43,597 nt of DNA from an uncultured Bacilli bacterium (GTDB taxonomy: Bacteria > Bacillota_I > Bacilli_A > RF39 > UBA660), in NCBI GenBank assembly GCA_944332435.1, contig CALVJW010000010.1:1-43597 (forward strand). Direction: 5' to 3'. Positions 5,698 through 28,284 of this stretch are shown here, one piece after another (positions within the stretch are counted from its first letter, which is position 1; every line of letters begins with the position of its first letter). The notes below the pieces were generated by a model. The model saw only the letters and a list, made by a program, of their open reading frames with translations. It did no database searches and was not told the origin of the DNA. The position numbers were made by a program, and so were the translations under genes.

Positions 5698-6474
5698 ATG
5701 GCACGTCATAAAGTAGAAATTTGTGGCGTGAATACTGCGAATATTAAAGTATTAAGTAATGAAGAAATGGTAGAATTATTTAAGAAGTATCAAAATGGAG
5801 ATGAGTTTGCGAAGGAAGAATTGATACAGGGAAATTTAAAATTAGTTTTATCTATTTTAAAGAAATTTACTGGTCGTGTTGATAATATGGATGATTTATT
5901 TCAAGTTGGATGTATTGGCCTTATTAAAGCAATTGATAATTTTGATTTATCCTATGATGTGAAGTTTTCAACTTATAGTGTTCCTATGATTTTAGGAGAA
6001 ATTAAACGTTATTTAAGAGACAATAATTCGGTACGAATTTCGCGTAGTATTAAAGATTTAGCTTATAAGACGTTAAAATTAAGAGAAGAGCTTACAAATG
6101 AGCGGGGAAATGAACCATCCCTCGAAGAAATTAGTAAATTATTAGGTGCTAGTGAATTAGAAATTAGTCAAGCTTTAGAATCATTAAAAGATACGGTTAG
6201 TATGTATGAACCAATTTATAATGATGGTGGAGATACCATTTATTTGTTAGACCAATTAGAGGATAAATCACTACAAAAATTTCCTATTGAATATCATATT
6301 GCTCTTCGAGACTCTTTAAAAAAATTGAAGGCCAAAGAACGTTTTATTTTAACAGAACGTTATTTAATTGGAAAAACACAAATGGAATTAGCAAGTGAAA
6401 TTGGAATTAGTCAAGCCCAAATATCTCGATTAGAAAAAAATGGAATCGATAATTTAAAAAAAATGATTTTATAA
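5698..6474 (+). CDS. sigG: Late forespore RNA polymerase sigma factor SigG
   Basis: This sigma-70 family factor drives late forespore genes (spore protection proteins, germination receptors, spoIVB). The 258 residues begin MARHKVEICGVNT, and the KVEICGV motif is specific to SigG orthologues as opposed to SigF. Region 2 contains DDLFQVGCIGLIKAIDNFD (core binding) and VKFSTYSVPMILGEIKRYLRDNN (-10 recognition and melting). Region 3 and region 4 follow, with the C-terminal helix-turn-helix QMELASEIGISQAQISRLEK. AAAGGAGAA precedes the ATG. In Bacillus, sigG lies next to spoIIGA-sigE; here neither is present upstream, although ylmC still follows. The stop codon lies inside a terminator. Confidence 0.95.
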   Translation: MARHKVEICGVNTANIKVLSNEEMVELFKKYQNGDEFAKEELIQGNLKLVLSILKKFTGRVDNMDDLFQVGCIGLIKAIDNFDLSYDVKFSTYSVPMILGEIKRYLRDNNSVRISRSIKDLAYKTLKLREELTNERGNEPSLEEISKLLGASELEISQALESLKDTVSMYEPIYNDGGDTIYLLDQLEDKSLQKFPIEYHIALRDSLKKLKAKERFILTERYLIGKTQMELASEIGISQAQISRLEKNGIDNLKKMIL

Positions 6475-20612: not shown

Positions 20613-20638
20613 AAAAATGTCAAATTGACATTTTTTTT
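20613..20638 (+). terminator. Rho-independent terminator after xseB
   Basis: AAAATGTCA, loop AAT, TGACATTTT, then T. Confidence 0.92.
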
Positions 20639-20641
20639 AAA

Positions 20642-20670
20642 ACATAGTTTTATTTATCATTTCCATAATA
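20642..20670 (+). promoter_or_regulatory. Candidate SigG promoter of spoIVB
   Basis: ACATA at 20642-20646, 17 bases, CATAATA at 20664-20670. The -10 fits the SigG consensus CATNHTA exactly, and the -35 matches four of five bases of GMATR. Bacillus spoIVB is known to be SigG-dependent, so the match is where it would be expected. No SigA-type pair is visible in the 70 bases between the terminator and the start codon. Confidence 0.6.
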
Positions 20671-20708
20671 ATAATGTAGTCTATATTACTACAAGGAGAT
20701 TGATTCTG

Positions 20709-21698
20709 ATGTTTAAAAAATTAAAAAATCAAACAATCATCATTCTTCTTTCATTATTTATTATGCCTACATCGATTCTAGCTTATTCTTCTTATTTAAT
20801 TCCAGGTGGTGAAAACATTGGGATTGAATTAAATAGTAAAAATGTTATGATTGTAGGTTTATATGAAGTAAATAATCAAAATCCTGGAAAAGACGCAGAT
20901 TTAAAAGTAGGAGATATGATTGAATCAGTCAATCAGAAAAAAGTATCAACAATTGAAGATTTAGTTCAAGCATTCGATTCAAATTGTGAAAGTGCTAGTA
21001 TTACATATATTAGAGATAATGAGAAATTGCAAACAAATTTAAGTTTGACCAAAGATAGTAATGGAGTATGTAAAACAGGACTTTATGTAAAAGATAGTAT
21101 TACTGGATTAGGAACACTTAGTTTTATTGATCCAAACACAAAAAAATTTGGTGCATTAGGACATGAAATTATTGAAAAATCAACAGGAAGATTATTGGAA
21201 ATCAAAGATGGAAAAATATTTCATTCTGATGTAACAGGGATTGAAAAAAGTGAAAATGGTGTTCCTGGAGAAAAGAATGCAAGATTTTATTCAGAAGAAG
21301 TAACTGGTACTATCAAAGAAAATACTGTACATGGTATTTTTGGAACCTATCAAGAAACATTGCCAAATAAAAAACAATATAAAGTAGCAAAACCAGAAGA
21401 AATAAAAAAAGGGAAAGCAAAATTACTTACTGTATTATCTGGTAATGATGTAAAAGAATACGATATTGAAATAACAAAAATTAATACAAATATGAGTCAG
21501 AAAACAAAAAATATTGTATTTAAAATTACCGATCAAGAATTGTTAAATCAAACCGGTGGTATTGTGCAAGGAATGAGTGGTAGTCCAATTATTCAAGATG
21601 ATAAGATTGTTGCTGCTGTCACACATGTTGTTGTAAATGATCCTACTCGTGGATATGGAATTTTTATTACAAATATGTTAGAAGAAGCAGAAAATTAG
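20709..21698 (+). CDS. spoIVB: Stage IV sporulation protein B, PDZ-S55 signalling protease
   Basis: In Bacillus this protein is secreted from the forespore into the intermembrane space, where it cleaves SpoIVFA to release pro-SigK processing. The ATG at 20709 follows AAGGAGATTG. Upstream in-frame codons cross the xseB terminator and are rejected. The 329 residues have a signal-anchor helix (about residues 8-26), a PDZ domain (residues 35-110, with LKVGDMIESVNQKKVSTIED), and the S55 peptidase: LGHEI with His152, and GGIVQGMSGSPIIQDDKIVA near residues 283-302 with the catalytic Ser in GMSGSP, then VNDPTRGYGIFI. At 329 residues it is about 100 shorter than the Bacillus protein, mostly before the PDZ domain. 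Confidence 0.95.
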   Translation: MFKKLKNQTIIILLSLFIMPTSILAYSSYLIPGGENIGIELNSKNVMIVGLYEVNNQNPGKDADLKVGDMIESVNQKKVSTIEDLVQAFDSNCESASITYIRDNEKLQTNLSLTKDSNGVCKTGLYVKDSITGLGTLSFIDPNTKKFGALGHEIIEKSTGRLLEIKDGKIFHSDVTGIEKSENGVPGEKNARFYSEEVTGTIKENTVHGIFGTYQETLPNKKQYKVAKPEEIKKGKAKLLTVLSGNDVKEYDIEITKINTNMSQKTKNIVFKITDQELLNQTGGIVQGMSGSPIIQDDKIVAAVTHVVVNDPTRGYGIFITNMLEEAEN

Positions 21699-22612: not shown

Positions 22613-23239
22613 ATGAAACAATTGGACAAACTAACAAACAAAGCAAAAAGTAATAAAAAAACTCTTTTATTTTTAGTAATTTTATTTATAGTAGGAATCA
22701 TTGCTGGATCGTTATTTATCACTATTCTAAATACATCTGATAAAACTCTAGTAAAAGAATATTTAGAGAAATTTATCATGAATTTACAACAAAACAAATT
22801 AGATTATACTGCTTCTTTTATTAGCTCTTTAATCTCTAATTTATTTTATGTTATTGTAATTTGGTTATTAGGCATTTCTGTAATTGGACTACCGATTATT
22901 TTATTTTTATATTTTGCAAAAGCATTTATTCTAGGATTTAGTATTTCTAGTATTTTATTTCATTATCAATTAAAAGGTATTGTTATTGCATTTTGTTATA
23001 TTTTTCCTCATCATATAATAAATGTATTAATATTTACGCTTTTAGTACTTTATTCTATGCGTTTATCTATTAGAATAAGTAAAACATTGATTGCTAAAAA
23101 AAGTCTTGATTTTAGGCTTATAATGAAGAAATACGGAATTATATTAGGAATCTGTTTAGTTGGTAGTATTATTACTTCCGTATTAGAAGTATTTGTCATG
23201 CCAACGTTATTAAAACTTTGTATGAGTATTATTTCATAG
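22613..23239 (+). CDS. spoIIM: Stage II sporulation protein M
   Basis: A membrane scaffold of the SpoIID-SpoIIM-SpoIIP complex that drives septal peptidoglycan thinning and engulfment of the forespore. It has 208 residues and about five membrane helices: residues 18-40, 67-95 (LISNLFYVIVIWLLGISVIG), 97-118, 123-150 and 174-200. The motif FCYIFPHHIINVLIF corresponds to the conserved 'lPHxxxExP'-type loop. The length agrees with Bacillus SpoIIM (about 214). GAGGTGAAAGA precedes the ATG. No clear SigE promoter was found upstream. spoIID and spoIIP are not in the window. Confidence 0.88.
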   Translation: MKQLDKLTNKAKSNKKTLLFLVILFIVGIIAGSLFITILNTSDKTLVKEYLEKFIMNLQQNKLDYTASFISSLISNLFYVIVIWLLGISVIGLPIILFLYFAKAFILGFSISSILFHYQLKGIVIAFCYIFPHHIINVLIFTLLVLYSMRLSIRISKTLIAKKSLDFRLIMKKYGIILGICLVGSIITSVLEVFVMPTLLKLCMSIIS

Positions 23240-24519: not shown

Positions 24520-25305
24520 ATGGAACGACTAAATGAAATTTTACATGAATTAGGAATATCAAAAGTGAAGTTGGCCAAATTTTTAGGTGTATCAAGACAA
24601 ATGATTTATAATTATCTTGAGTTAGACGATATTAATAAATGGCCAAAAGATAAAAAAGTGCTACTATTAAACTTATTGGGAATAAAATCAGCTGAGGAAT
24701 TAAATAAGATTAAGGTAGACACAGATTATATATTAAGCGTAGAAACCCGTATGAACACCGTATTGGAAGAAGCCGACGGAACGGCAAATGGTAGTGGCAA
24801 ATCTTTAGCCGGACTAAAAAAACGCGATCAAGAATTAGCAAACGATATTATCGATGTTATGAAAGAACGCTTAGAAGAAGATAAAACGGACGAAAGTTAT
24901 CATATTTTTAAATACTTGTACCATTTTATTCAGTCATTAGACTCATCAAGAGAATTAAAATATATGCTAGCGTATGTTTCTAAAGCAGCAGGGTTTACAA
25001 AACCATTAGAATTTGCATTTGATGAAGAAGAACAATTCGTATTTGAAAGTATTTTATTTTCAGCAATGACAATTTATAATAATGGCGGTTCAAGTCCAGC
25101 AAAGATTGCTGAATCACATCGTCGTTTTGTAAATCAAATCGAACATAAGATTGAAGAAAAAATGAGTCGTACATTGGAATTAAATTCTGCAAGAATTCAA
25201 GCAATGAAAGAACTTGGCTATACTACTGTTACTGAAGAAAATTTTAGAGAAGTTCTAGAAAAGATGGCAGAAATTGATACTCGCAAAATATCAAATTTAA
25301 AATAG
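24520..25305 (+). CDS. Xre/Cro-family DNA-binding protein with a helical C-terminal domain
   Basis: Residues 4-60 form a helix-turn-helix: LNEILHELGISKVKLAKFLG then VSRQMIYNYLELDDINKWPK, with SRQMIYNYL as recognition helix. The remaining 200 residues are soluble, acidic and mostly helical (DQELANDIIDVMKERLEEDK, ELKYMLAYVSKAAGFTKPLE, SHRRFVNQIEHKIEEKMSRT) and do not resemble a peptidase, kinase or known sensor domain. AGGAGGT precedes the ATG. The gene is a single unit with its own promoter, palindrome and terminator. It borders the AT-rich region holding the NERD gene, but a regulatory link to it is only a possibility. Confidence 0.8.
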   Translation: MERLNEILHELGISKVKLAKFLGVSRQMIYNYLELDDINKWPKDKKVLLLNLLGIKSAEELNKIKVDTDYILSVETRMNTVLEEADGTANGSGKSLAGLKKRDQELANDIIDVMKERLEEDKTDESYHIFKYLYHFIQSLDSSRELKYMLAYVSKAAGFTKPLEFAFDEEEQFVFESILFSAMTIYNNGGSSPAKIAESHRRFVNQIEHKIEEKMSRTLELNSARIQAMKELGYTTVTEENFREVLEKMAEIDTRKISNLK

Positions 25306-25332: not shown

Positions 25333-25959
25333 ATTTATTATATATATAAGTCTATTTTTTTGTTTAAGTCCCCTCTTCTAATCACAATAAAACAGTAGGG
25401 TAGAAGAAAGTGTTAAGTCCCCTTCTAATCATACACTAATGATATTTACAATAGTAGAGATGATTTATATTTATAATAGAGTATCAGTTTATTTATAAAA
25501 TGTAATCGTATATTTAAAATAAATATGGTAAAATAATAATATCGTTATAAAGTGATAAAATACAATTAAATTAACTTTTATAAATATATAAATAATTAAT
25601 TAGATTGAAAAATTAATAATCGAGAATTTAATTGTATTATTTATTAAAATTAAATTATATCAGCTATTATCATAAATACTAATATAATATAATAATAGTA
25701 ATAAATGATGTATTAATCAAAAATAATGGACAAATGAGAAAGTATTATTTTTTAATAAATGAAGAACTATAAGCCTAAAATAAGAAATATATCTAACTTA
25801 CTATAATGTATATTATGTTAACTTCTGTATTTTGAAATAAATATGTTGATAAAAGAGCAACAAAATATTTTACAATAACATGTTATAAATTATTCTTTAA
25901 TATTTACTTTTTGCTACCACTTTGATATGCTATTTATATAATAGTCTGGAGTGAAAAAT
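25333..25959. other. Long AT-rich gap without a recognisable gene
   Basis: This is the only gene-free stretch of more than 300 bases. Stops are dense in all six frames, and A+T is visibly higher than in the genes on either side, with many short runs of TAT, AAT and TTA. It holds an imperfect 19-21-base direct repeat near its left end. Near its right end TATAAT at 25937-25942 is a likely -10 for the NERD gene. No tRNA-like fold, transposase remnant or clear ncRNA was seen. Confidence 0.6.
25364..25431. repeat. Imperfect direct repeat pair
   Basis: TTAAGTCCCC-TC-TTCTAATCA at 25364-25384 and TTAAGTCCCCTTCTAATCA at 25413-25431 are the same sequence apart from a two-base insertion, 28 bases apart. 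The C-rich block stands out in an otherwise A/T background. TAGAAGA between the copies can pair with TCTTCTA of the first copy. Confidence 0.65.
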
Positions 25960-26715
25960 ATGAATATTAATACGTTGTTATTATTATTGTGTTTTATCCT
26001 TTTAATTATCATATTAATTAATTTAATAAAAACAAAAAATACAAGTGTAACAAAAGAAAATTATAAAAGATATTATAGCAATAATTATTACTATCGTAAA
26101 AGAAACTATTCTAAAACTAAGAAAAAAGATGCTAATATAATTGGAAAAAAGGGAGAAACTAAGATTATTAATTTACTTAAAAATCAATCTATTCCTGGAT
26201 ATTATAAAATTTTAAAAAATATATATTTGATGGGAGATGGTGAAAATCGATCTGAGATTGATGTTTTACTAATTCATGAAACGGGATTCTATATTATTGA
26301 ATCTAAAAATGTAAGTGGTGCTATTTACGGTAGTAGTTATGATAAATCATGGACAGTAAAATATTATCGCAGTCAAACTACCTACCCTATTACAAACCCA
26401 GTTCATCAAAATTACGGACATATTATGTTTTTAAAAAACATGTTGCATTTAACAAATGATAGTTATTTTAAGTCTTTTGTTGTATTTAGCGATTATTGTA
26501 AATTATCAAAAATTAATTTATGTGATAATGATAAAACAATTGTTATACAACAAAATCAATTAGTAGATACATTAATAAAAGAAATTAGTAATGCTACTTA
26601 TAAACCTTTTTCTAAAGATAAAATTGATTCATATGAATATGTTTTAAATGCTTTTTGTAATAAGTCACAAGATATAAAAGAAAAACATATTGAGCGTTTA
26701 AAACAAAAAAATTAA
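25960..26715 (+). CDS. Membrane-anchored NERD-domain (nuclease-related) protein
   Basis: An N-terminal membrane helix (residues 4-22) is followed by a Tyr/Lys/Asn-rich linker and a NERD domain. The restriction-endonuclease-like residues are in place: Glu66 in IGKKGETKII, Asp101 in RSEIDVLLIHETGFYIIESK, and the E-x-K pair Glu114/Lys116. PITNPVHQNYGHIMFLKNML near residue 146 is another NERD hallmark. Such proteins are thought to act on nucleic acids, but their targets are mostly unknown. The ATG at 25960 is preferred to the GTG at 25951 because TGGAG (25947-25951) is then properly spaced. The gene follows a long AT-rich gap, which suggests recent insertion. Confidence 0.82.
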   Translation: MNINTLLLLLCFILLIIILINLIKTKNTSVTKENYKRYYSNNYYYRKRNYSKTKKKDANIIGKKGETKIINLLKNQSIPGYYKILKNIYLMGDGENRSEIDVLLIHETGFYIIESKNVSGAIYGSSYDKSWTVKYYRSQTTYPITNPVHQNYGHIMFLKNMLHLTNDSYFKSFVVFSDYCKLSKINLCDNDKTIVIQQNQLVDTLIKEISNATYKPFSKDKIDSYEYVLNAFCNKSQDIKEKHIERLKQKN

Positions 26716-26736
26716 CATATTTTACCACTCTATTTA

Positions 26737-26766
26737 TGAATACTACAATCATTTTGGTTCATAATA
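26737..26766 (+). promoter_or_regulatory. Near-consensus SigG (forespore) promoter
   Basis: TGAATA at 26737-26742, 17 bases, CATAATA at 26760-26766. The -35 matches the SigG consensus at all six positions, and the -10 fits CATNHTA exactly (6 of 7 against CATACTA). GGGTGAT follows at 26772-26778 and the ATG of a 49-residue gene at 26783. Confidence 0.7.
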
Positions 26767-26782
26767 GTAATGGGTGATTATA

Positions 26783-26932
26783 ATGGCAAAGAATAAGAAT
26801 AACAATAATGCAAAAGCAAAAAAAACAAATAAAATAACAAATGCTAATGCAAACAATGTTAACGATAATATTGGATTCACAAATGAAGATAATTCTAATA
26901 GATCTAATATTGACGCTAAAAATTGTAAATAA
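26783..26932 (+). CDS. Asn/Lys-rich 49-aa protein, candidate small acid-soluble-type spore protein
   Basis: The frame reads MAKNKNNNNAKAKKTNKITN, then ANANNVNDNIGFTNEDNSNR, then SNIDAKNCK and stop. About one third of the residues are Asn, with Lys, Ala and Thr making up much of the rest, no hydrophobic core and only one aromatic residue. Small size, low complexity and disorder are typical of minor and gamma-type small spore proteins. GFTNEDN loosely recalls their 'EFASET' protease site but is not a match. The case for a spore protein rests mainly on the SigG-like promoter directly upstream. GGGTGAT is the ribosome binding site, and a terminator follows the stop. No confident homologue is recognised. 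Confidence 0.65.
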   Translation: MAKNKNNNNAKAKKTNKITNANANNVNDNIGFTNEDNSNRSNIDAKNCK

Positions 26933-26940
26933 CCCAAAGA

Positions 26941-26967
26941 AAAGAGGCAATTATATGCCTCTTTTTT
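26941..26967. terminator. Bidirectional terminator
   Basis: AAAGAGGCA, loop ATTATA, TGCCTCTTT, with a T run on the plus side and a T-rich run on the minus side. It serves both the 49-residue gene and the convergent minus-strand gene, whose stop codon lies in the loop. Confidence 0.88.
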
Positions 26968-27475
26968 GCTTCTCCCCTACTCTTTGAGTTGCTGCATCAA
27001 TATATTCATGAATAATATCTAAGTTTTGTTCTTTTTTGTAATCACGATAAGAGCTAACTTCTAAATGAGATAATTCATTAGGTAATTGATTAATTAAATA
27101 AATTTTATCAAATGATTTCCATTGCTGATATAATTCTTTTAATGCTTGTAGTTGATTTTCGCTAATTAAATCTAAATCTATTGGTAATTGAACTTCAACT
27201 ATTTTTTCTCCACTAATAGAGAAAGAATAATCATCATTTAATACTAAAATCGTACCTAAATTTGTTAAGTATTGTTCGATAATATCATAAGAATTTTCTA
27301 TATCAGGAAATAAGTCGTTTACGATTTTTTCAAGAATTAAGTAATGTTTTTTTCGACATTTTTCCATTCTTAGCATAAATTTATTGATTGGAGAATAGAC
27401 TTGTCCTTCATATTCTGCAATTTGTAGTTGTTCTTTTGTTAGATCTTGATTAAAAATAACGTATCCTTTGTTCAT
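26951..27475 (-). CDS. Hypothetical protein, 174 aa
   Basis: A soluble acidic/basic mixed protein starting MNKGYVIFNQDLTKEQLQIA, with ISGEKIVEVQLPIDLDLISE near residue 87 and a helical second half (LQALKELYQQWKSFDKIYLI). No membrane segment, metal site or nucleotide-binding motif is apparent. The start is supported by GGAAGTGAT before the ATG and TATAAT (27496-27501 on the complement) 20 bases upstream. It appears to be a single-gene unit. I do not recognise it. Confidence 0.7.
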   Translation of the reverse strand: MNKGYVIFNQDLTKEQLQIAEYEGQVYSPINKFMLRMEKCRKKHYLILEKIVNDLFPDIENSYDIIEQYLTNLGTILVLNDDYSFSISGEKIVEVQLPIDLDLISENQLQALKELYQQWKSFDKIYLINQLPNELSHLEVSSYRDYKKEQNLDIIHEYIDAATQRVGEKQKRGI

Positions 27476-27531: not shown

Positions 27532-28284
27532 TTATATTAGAATTGTGATTCCCATCAAAATACAACCAATAAAAAAGAATAAAATACTAACTTTTTTATG
27601 TTGATATGTTAGAGACTCTGGCATTAGCTCATAACAAGCAATATGTAGCATAATTCCTGCAATTATGGAAAATAGTATTCCTAAAATAAAATCATTGATT
27701 ATCGTGCTTAAAAATAAGAATGCTAGTAATGCTCCAAATGGTTCTGATAAACTAGAAATAAGTGTATACAAAAAAGCTTTCTTTTTACTTTTCGTACTAT
27801 AATAAATAGGAATAGAGATACTAATTCCTTCTGGAATATTATGAAATGTAATAGCTAGTGCTAAAGAAATTCCTAATGATATATTTTCATGCGTTGCCAT
27901 AAAAGTAGCTATTCCTTCCGGAATATTGTGTAAAATGATTGCAATCATAGAAAAAACACCAATGTGATATAATCCCCTACTCTGTTTTACTTGTTCTACT
28001 GGGAGTGATGCATCAATAAAAATAGAACATAATATTCCTATTACGATAAAAATTAAAACAGTTAAAAAGGACGGAAATGGTAAAAAAATAGTATCTAATA
28101 GTTTATTTGCCTCTGGAATTAAGTCAATAAAGGATACTGTAATCATAACTCCCGAAGCAAAGCTGAGGCTTGCTGCAATCATTTTCTCTTGCTTTTTAAC
28201 TTTGAAAAAAATAAAGACACTTCCTAACATGGTAGAAAAACCAGCGATAGTTGTAAGTAAAAAAGCTAATGTAGTATTAGACAT
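27532..28284 (-). CDS. zupT: ZIP-family divalent metal transporter
   Basis: Imports zinc, and in related proteins iron or manganese, across the cell membrane. The 250 residues contain about eight membrane helices and two copies of the metal-site motif: LHNIPEGIATFMATHE near residue 118 and FHNIPEGISISIPIYY near 147, on helices 4 and 5 of the ZIP fold. The start region is compact: TATAAT (28301-28306 on the complement), six bases, AGGTGAT (28288-28294), ATG at 28284. No Zur or Mur box is evident. Confidence 0.9.
   Translation of the reverse strand: MSNTTLAFLLTTIAGFSTMLGSVFIFFKVKKQEKMIAASLSFASGVMITVSFIDLIPEANKLLDTIFLPFPSFLTVLIFIVIGILCSIFIDASLPVEQVKQSRGLYHIGVFSMIAIILHNIPEGIATFMATHENISLGISLALAITFHNIPEGISISIPIYYSTKSKKKAFLYTLISSLSEPFGALLAFLFLSTIINDFILGILFSIIAGIMLHIACYELMPESLTYQHKKVSILFFFIGCILMGITILI

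Follow-up and report, generated by a model that had tools for sequence, protein, structure and literature searches.

A 49-codon gene between a SigG-type promoter and an intrinsic terminator

The window, a stretch of 43,597 nucleotides from an uncultured Bacilli bacterium, carries at 26783–26932 on the forward strand a gene of 49 codons, with its start ATG at 26783–26785 and its stop TAA at 26930–26932. The product of 49 residues, MAKNKNNNNAKAKKTNKITNANANNVNDNIGFTNEDNSNRSNIDAKNCK, is Asn/Lys-rich and disordered, with one Cys at residue 48. Upstream, TGAATA (26737–26742) is followed by N17 and CATAATA (26760–26766). Read as GAATA-N17-CATAATA (26738–26766, +; −35 at 26738–26742, −10 at 26760–26766), this element fully matches GHATR-N17-CATWHTA and bears out the near-perfect SigG promoter named in a preliminary description of this DNA; the SigG regulon pattern GHATR-N17/18-CATWHTA is thus present, and its distance from the start codon suits a promoter. 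The GGGTGAT Shine-Dalgarno (SD) sequence (26772–26778, +) sits five bases behind CATAATA and four bases ahead of ATG, and the mRNA 5′ end is predicted to fall here, 6–8 nt after the −10. An intrinsic terminator (26938–26967, +) overlaps the end of a convergent ORF (26951–27475), and its hairpin is strong (−15.5 kcal/mol, z −4.9, equalled in stability by 0 shuffles). The preliminary description had promoter, SD, ATG, frame, terminator and coordinates right, and erred only in giving six bases between CATAATA and GGGTGAT.

The sigma factor proposed to drive the gene is encoded in the same window, as had been stated: sigG lies at 5698–6474 (+). The models that fit it best are NF006071, with 364 bits against a strict cut-off of 372, and TIGR02850, with 347 bits against 457; both fall short of the cut-off, yet the other sigma models score far lower. 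The sporulation genes spoIVB (20625–21698) and spoIIM (22613–23239) are also present. GHATR-N17-CATWHTA alone is found once in the window against 0.70 expected, and in 54 of 100 shuffles, while the complete arrangement promoter-N5-GGGTGAT-N4-ATG occurs once without mismatch and in 0 shuffles, even allowing three mismatches. A bare promoter match is unremarkable in this AT-rich window; the case for the gene rests on its conservation in relatives.

A lineage-specific gene family under purifying selection

Homologues were sought in 386 genomes of the same taxonomic family with a profile built from four sequences and then from sixteen. The second search reached 51 genomes at E ≤ 0.1; matches other than short frames were dropped, which left 45 short frames of 46–101 residues in 45 of the 386 genomes. 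These were found via protein similarity only, and promoters played no part in finding them. A single-sequence search of the 386 genomes returned two real relatives besides the one in the same genus; low-complexity matches inside long proteins were discarded. Extra members recovered via the GGGTGAT pattern were excluded from all statistics, since that search presupposes the SD. A class-wide search of 296 genomes with the 45-member profile gave no convincing match outside the taxonomic family, although this profile is so diffuse that even the window gene reaches only 9e-5, and distant relatives may escape it. The lineage specificity that had been suspected is upheld, with 45 members within one taxonomic family and none convincing elsewhere in the class. 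Likewise, the databases bear out the statement that the protein has no recognisable family, as no Pfam or NCBIfam family fits any of the 45 members; there is nevertheless a real family, so far without a name, that numbers 45 members or more. Weak matches to these databases, such as Bflower_2 in four members, are scattered and not credible.

In the only other genome of the genus, the ORF retains 93% DNA identity against 83–87% for the flanking genes, and the frame, promoter, SD and terminator are all intact. Across the family, dN/dS is below 1 in 13 of 13 close pairs (range 0–0.55). Pooled over these pairs, pS is 0.295 and pN 0.064; the pooled test ignores phylogeny, and the uniform direction in all pairs is the safer statement. 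A terminator-like hairpin, by a loose criterion, follows all 45 members. The frame is under purifying selection and the window gene is real. Promoter, frame and terminator, whose joint conservation had been proposed as a check, travel together, and relatives keep the frame under selection rather than the DNA without it. Judged from these sequences, the genes form a conserved, previously unnamed, lineage-specific and fast-evolving family that existing databases miss.

A conserved genomic slot in probably spore-forming Bacilli

Most members are orthologous by locus. A convergent ZIP/ZupT-like metal transporter gene (27532–28284, −; Pfam PF02535, 112 bits) lies downstream of the window gene, and a ZIP-type transporter is found in this place in at least 34 of the 45 loci, counted in flanks of 0.7–1.5 kb, and also in L241–L243. 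The conserved upstream neighbour encodes an HTH-type protein (24520–25305, +), with relatives upstream in at least 15 loci (same flanks) and in L241 and L243. This protein, which has no confident family and is kept upstream of a spore gene in many genera, could be a sporulation regulator. Immediately upstream of the window gene is a gene for a NERD-domain (nuclease-related) protein with a hydrophobic N-terminus (25951–26715), whose relatives lie nearby in only six of the 45 loci.

The gene tends to occur in genomes with other spore genes. An alpha/beta-type SASP is detected in 40 of 45 genomes that carry it, but in only 17 of 29 genomes of the taxonomic family in which no member was detected (Fisher p 0.004); the five carriers without one are G087, G168, G144, G177 and G358, and some of these assemblies are incomplete. 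A full-length GPR protease is encoded in 19 of 20 carriers tested, the exception being G168, and gamma-type SASP (PF04259) was found in 0 of 60 relatives. Where relative genomes have public names, these denote uncultured Bacilli/Bacillales, and several of the assemblies come from animal gut. The order is possibly RF39, and the hosts are probably spore-forming gut Bacilli. Sporulation in such uncultured small-genome Bacilli is inferred mainly via homologues of Bacillus genes, and searches of this type miss the present family, which is as such a candidate marker for spore-formers among uncultured gut Bacilli genomes.

A predicted disordered protein, probably kept for its composition

The mean composition of the members is 23% Asn, 15% Lys and 13% Ser, and AlphaFold2 predicts no secondary structure for one full-length relative (pTM 0.14, mean pLDDT 63), in agreement with the Asn/Lys-rich, disordered frame of 49 residues that had been described. 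At least one cysteine is present in 44 of 45 members, at shifting chain positions. In other genomes, genes found by pattern in the same genomic slot (L243 and, in part, L242) have no more in common with the family than composition, Cys, promoter and SD. Orthologues have kept promoter, position, composition and a cysteine while sequence similarity has been lost, and such retention of composition under sequence drift fits a disordered bulk protein such as gamma-SASP.

We consider it probable that SigG RNA polymerase transcribes the gene in the forespore and that the product is a small spore-core protein, intrinsically disordered and high in Asn, Lys and Ser, that resembles the gamma-type or minor SASPs. 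SigG dependence, location in the spore core and a storage or filler role are what we infer from this resemblance; most likely the protein would work as those SASPs do, as bulk, unstructured material kept for composition and not for fold. The cysteine, of which there are nearly always one or two, would be available for disulfide linkage. Unlike in classical alpha/beta and gamma SASPs, a GPR-type cleavage motif, such as [TE]EFASE of the gamma type, occurs in 0 of 45 members, and this difference counts against the reading; if the protein is a store, a protease other than GPR would have to open it.

A comparison with the known classes delimits this resemblance. The gene is not an alpha/beta-type SASP (PF00269), having no profile match and no GPR site and, in place of DNA-binding helices, a relative that is disordered in AlphaFold2. 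Nor is it a gamma-type SASP (PF04259) by profile, as neither the window gene nor any member matches or carries a GPR cleavage motif. With gamma-type SspE, which is restricted to bacilli (PMC3533761), the family shares small size, lack of structure, a polar, amide-rich composition, probable SigG control and lineage restriction, but it is Asn- and not Gln-rich, lacks the profile match and the cleavage motif, and has a conserved cysteine and an SD-complementary motif in its 3′ UTR. The minor SASPs SspK–SspP and Tlp are likewise small, are confined to narrow phylogenetic groups and have forespore promoters (PMC3533761), but 0 of 45 members match their Pfam or NCBIfam models. Small SigG-dependent spore proteins are already known; what is new here is an unnamed lineage-specific family and a less usual RNA feature.

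Several motifs bear on how specific the role of the protein may be. The GF motif is found in 42 of 45 members and the SFxL motif in 38, doubled in 34; most members carry one or two copies of an SFx[LVYI]D-like sequence ending in HSFELR, which the genus of the window and G168 have lost. In most members the N-terminal part is positive and the C-terminal part negative, with a mean net charge of +7.3 before the GF motif and −4.8 after it. The conserved C-terminal SFxLDxDxxHSFELR repeat suggests a role more specific than bulk storage, and these motifs, together with the segregation of charge along the protein, are what speaks for a dedicated binding function in the forespore, the target being DNA, RNA, the inner membrane or a partner that the IGF and SFxLDxDxxHSFELR motifs would contact. 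We hold such a function to be rather unlikely, given that the positional orthologues L243 and L242 have no recognisable motifs and still keep composition, Cys, promoter and SD.

Asn/Lys/Cys-rich frames of 49–50 residues with the same CATAATA-GGGTGATGAAA leader were also seen at L218, L219 and L220 (genomes G208, G230 and G104), with no HTH or ZIP neighbours within the DNA read. They are possibly a second family or relocated copies.

The family promoter resembles those of SASP genes

Consensus −10 elements are CATWHTA for SigG, CATACAHT for SigE and CATAN3TA for SigK. In nearly all members the −10 reads [CAT]AT[AT][ACT]TA and ends 14–17 bases before the start codon, with a GHATR-like −35 usually 17 bases away. 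An independent standard is provided by a matrix derived from the alpha/beta-SASP promoters of the same taxonomic family, which are typically GTATG-N17-CATTCTA and have the same 17-base spacing as the window promoter. With this matrix, 58% of members reach at least 2 bits, compared with 2.9% of shuffled upstream regions, and 38% reach at least 6 bits, compared with 0.6%. The window promoter scores 6.36 bits, a value attained by 0.47% of shuffles, while some members (G161, G077 and G121) score poorly. G171 and G002 encode identical proteins, and their upstream DNA has diverged except at the −35, −10 and SD. The simpler pattern of a −10 plus SD also matches genes of vegetative look and is therefore not specific by itself. 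From its sequence, we assign the promoter of the family to the forespore (SigG) type of sporulation promoter.

Transcription in the mother cell by SigE or SigK, with a disordered, Asn-rich coat or crust protein as the product and the cysteine cross-linking the coat, is improbable. The members do share with SigE-type promoters the ATA of the −35 and the CAT of the −10, disordered Asn-rich proteins bearing Cys are known from coats, and one SigK gene of C. difficile carries the annotation of an asparagine-rich protein of coat assembly (PMC5311115). The −10 of nearly all members, however, fits the SigG consensus and not those of SigE or SigK, and the SASP-promoter matrix of the lineage fits with the same spacing.

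A TACCA element at 26723–26727 (+), upstream of the −35 of the window promoter, also lies upstream of nearly all SASP promoters read; within the gene family it is confined to part of the members (18 of 45 by a loose count). As ATTACCA, this element precedes the −35 in nearly all alpha/beta-SASP promoters of the taxonomic family. In addition, these SASP promoters have an inverted repeat, TGTACAC-N9-GTGTACA, straddling the −10 (L043:1443–1465, most of L132–L151, L046 and L051), which looks like an operator for a forespore regulator.

The Shine-Dalgarno sequence is complementary to a conserved 3′ motif

Directly behind the window gene, the motif ACCCA (26932–26936, +) overlaps the last base of the stop codon and is complementary to TGGGT at 26771–26775. 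Like the cysteine and the genomic slot, this conserved 3′ CCCA is an addition to the preliminary description. GGGTGAT precedes the start codon in 45 of 45 members and in none of 192 background ORFs taken from the neighbouring DNA, start codons having been picked with a preference for an SD and not for GGGTGAT. A 3′ UTR motif complementary to the SD of the same gene is present beyond chance: CCCA, complementary to (T)GGGT in the SD, where the transcript is predicted to begin, occurs within 40 nt after the stop in 35 of 45 members against 3 of 192 background ORFs, and in partition-function folding of the predicted transcripts the GGG of the SD pairs with the 3′ region with a mean probability of 0.80, compared with 0.35 when 3′ regions from other terminator-bearing genes are used. 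The distance from stop to CCCA ranges from 3 to 22 bases and the surrounding bases differ, so that the motif is no passive remnant. The genome of the window contains 21 GGGTGAT-ATG arrangements, and the 3′ motif is found only at the window gene. The pairing core is about five base pairs. CCCA is missing from ten members, and some members are predicted not to pair: G001 (same genus; 0.10 despite the motif), G171, G002 and G011. Between SD and 3′ motif only wobble or one-sided changes are seen, and compensatory covariation could not show because the SD side never varies.

This arrangement resembles that of the icaR mRNA of S. aureus, in which the 3′ UTR motif UCCCCUG base-pairs with the SD, keeping ribosomes off and bringing in RNase III (PMC3868564). 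Both have a C-rich 3′ UTR motif complementary to the SD region of the same mRNA, but the present pairing, predicted from sequence, comprises about five base pairs; the SD lies at the very 5′ end predicted for the transcript, and the motif, which is conserved in many genera, follows the stop by no more than about 25 nt. The complementarity suggests closed-loop, icaR-like control. The mRNA would begin at or next to GGGUGAU, and in the cell CCCA before the terminator would pair with this sequence in most members, dampening translation and/or shielding the 5′ end. More tentatively, the spore-specific mRNA might perhaps form a loop in this way that is translationally muted and protected from 5′-end decay, so that the message is either metered out as the spore forms or kept in store through dormancy. 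SigG-dependent mRNAs whose purpose is unclear are abundant in dormant spores (PMC7649253), which we mention as a speculative setting for such 5′–3′ control; whether structure silences or protects spore messages could be tested directly on an mRNA whose two ends are complementary and conserved.

The same motif could in principle act in trans on GGGTGAT-type SDs of other forespore mRNAs, the gene being a dual-function or mainly regulatory RNA with the protein secondary. Its strong enrichment, the use of GGGTGAT by other genes of the genome, the action in trans of UCCCC motifs in S. aureus RNAs (PMC3868564) and the existence of forespore sRNAs such as CsfG and Bvs196 (PMC9147052) lend this some appeal, and the latter also share forespore (SigF/SigG) promoters and mRNA pairing as a conceivable mode of action. 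They are, however, noncoding, whereas the present genes are conserved as coding sequences. The strong purifying selection to which the protein is subject, the lack of an Rfam match and the ten members without the motif make such a role of the RNA unlikely. A chance open frame behind a chance promoter, conceivable insofar as the bare consensus is expected about once per window, is extremely improbable and is refuted by the conservation of frame, promoter and terminator.

The genus g162 (L083, L086, L087 and L088) has no CCCA and instead a short hairpin directly after the coding frame that includes the stop codon. Compensatory changes are seen in this hairpin, TAGGT..ACCTA in some sequences corresponding to TAGGC..GCCTA in others.
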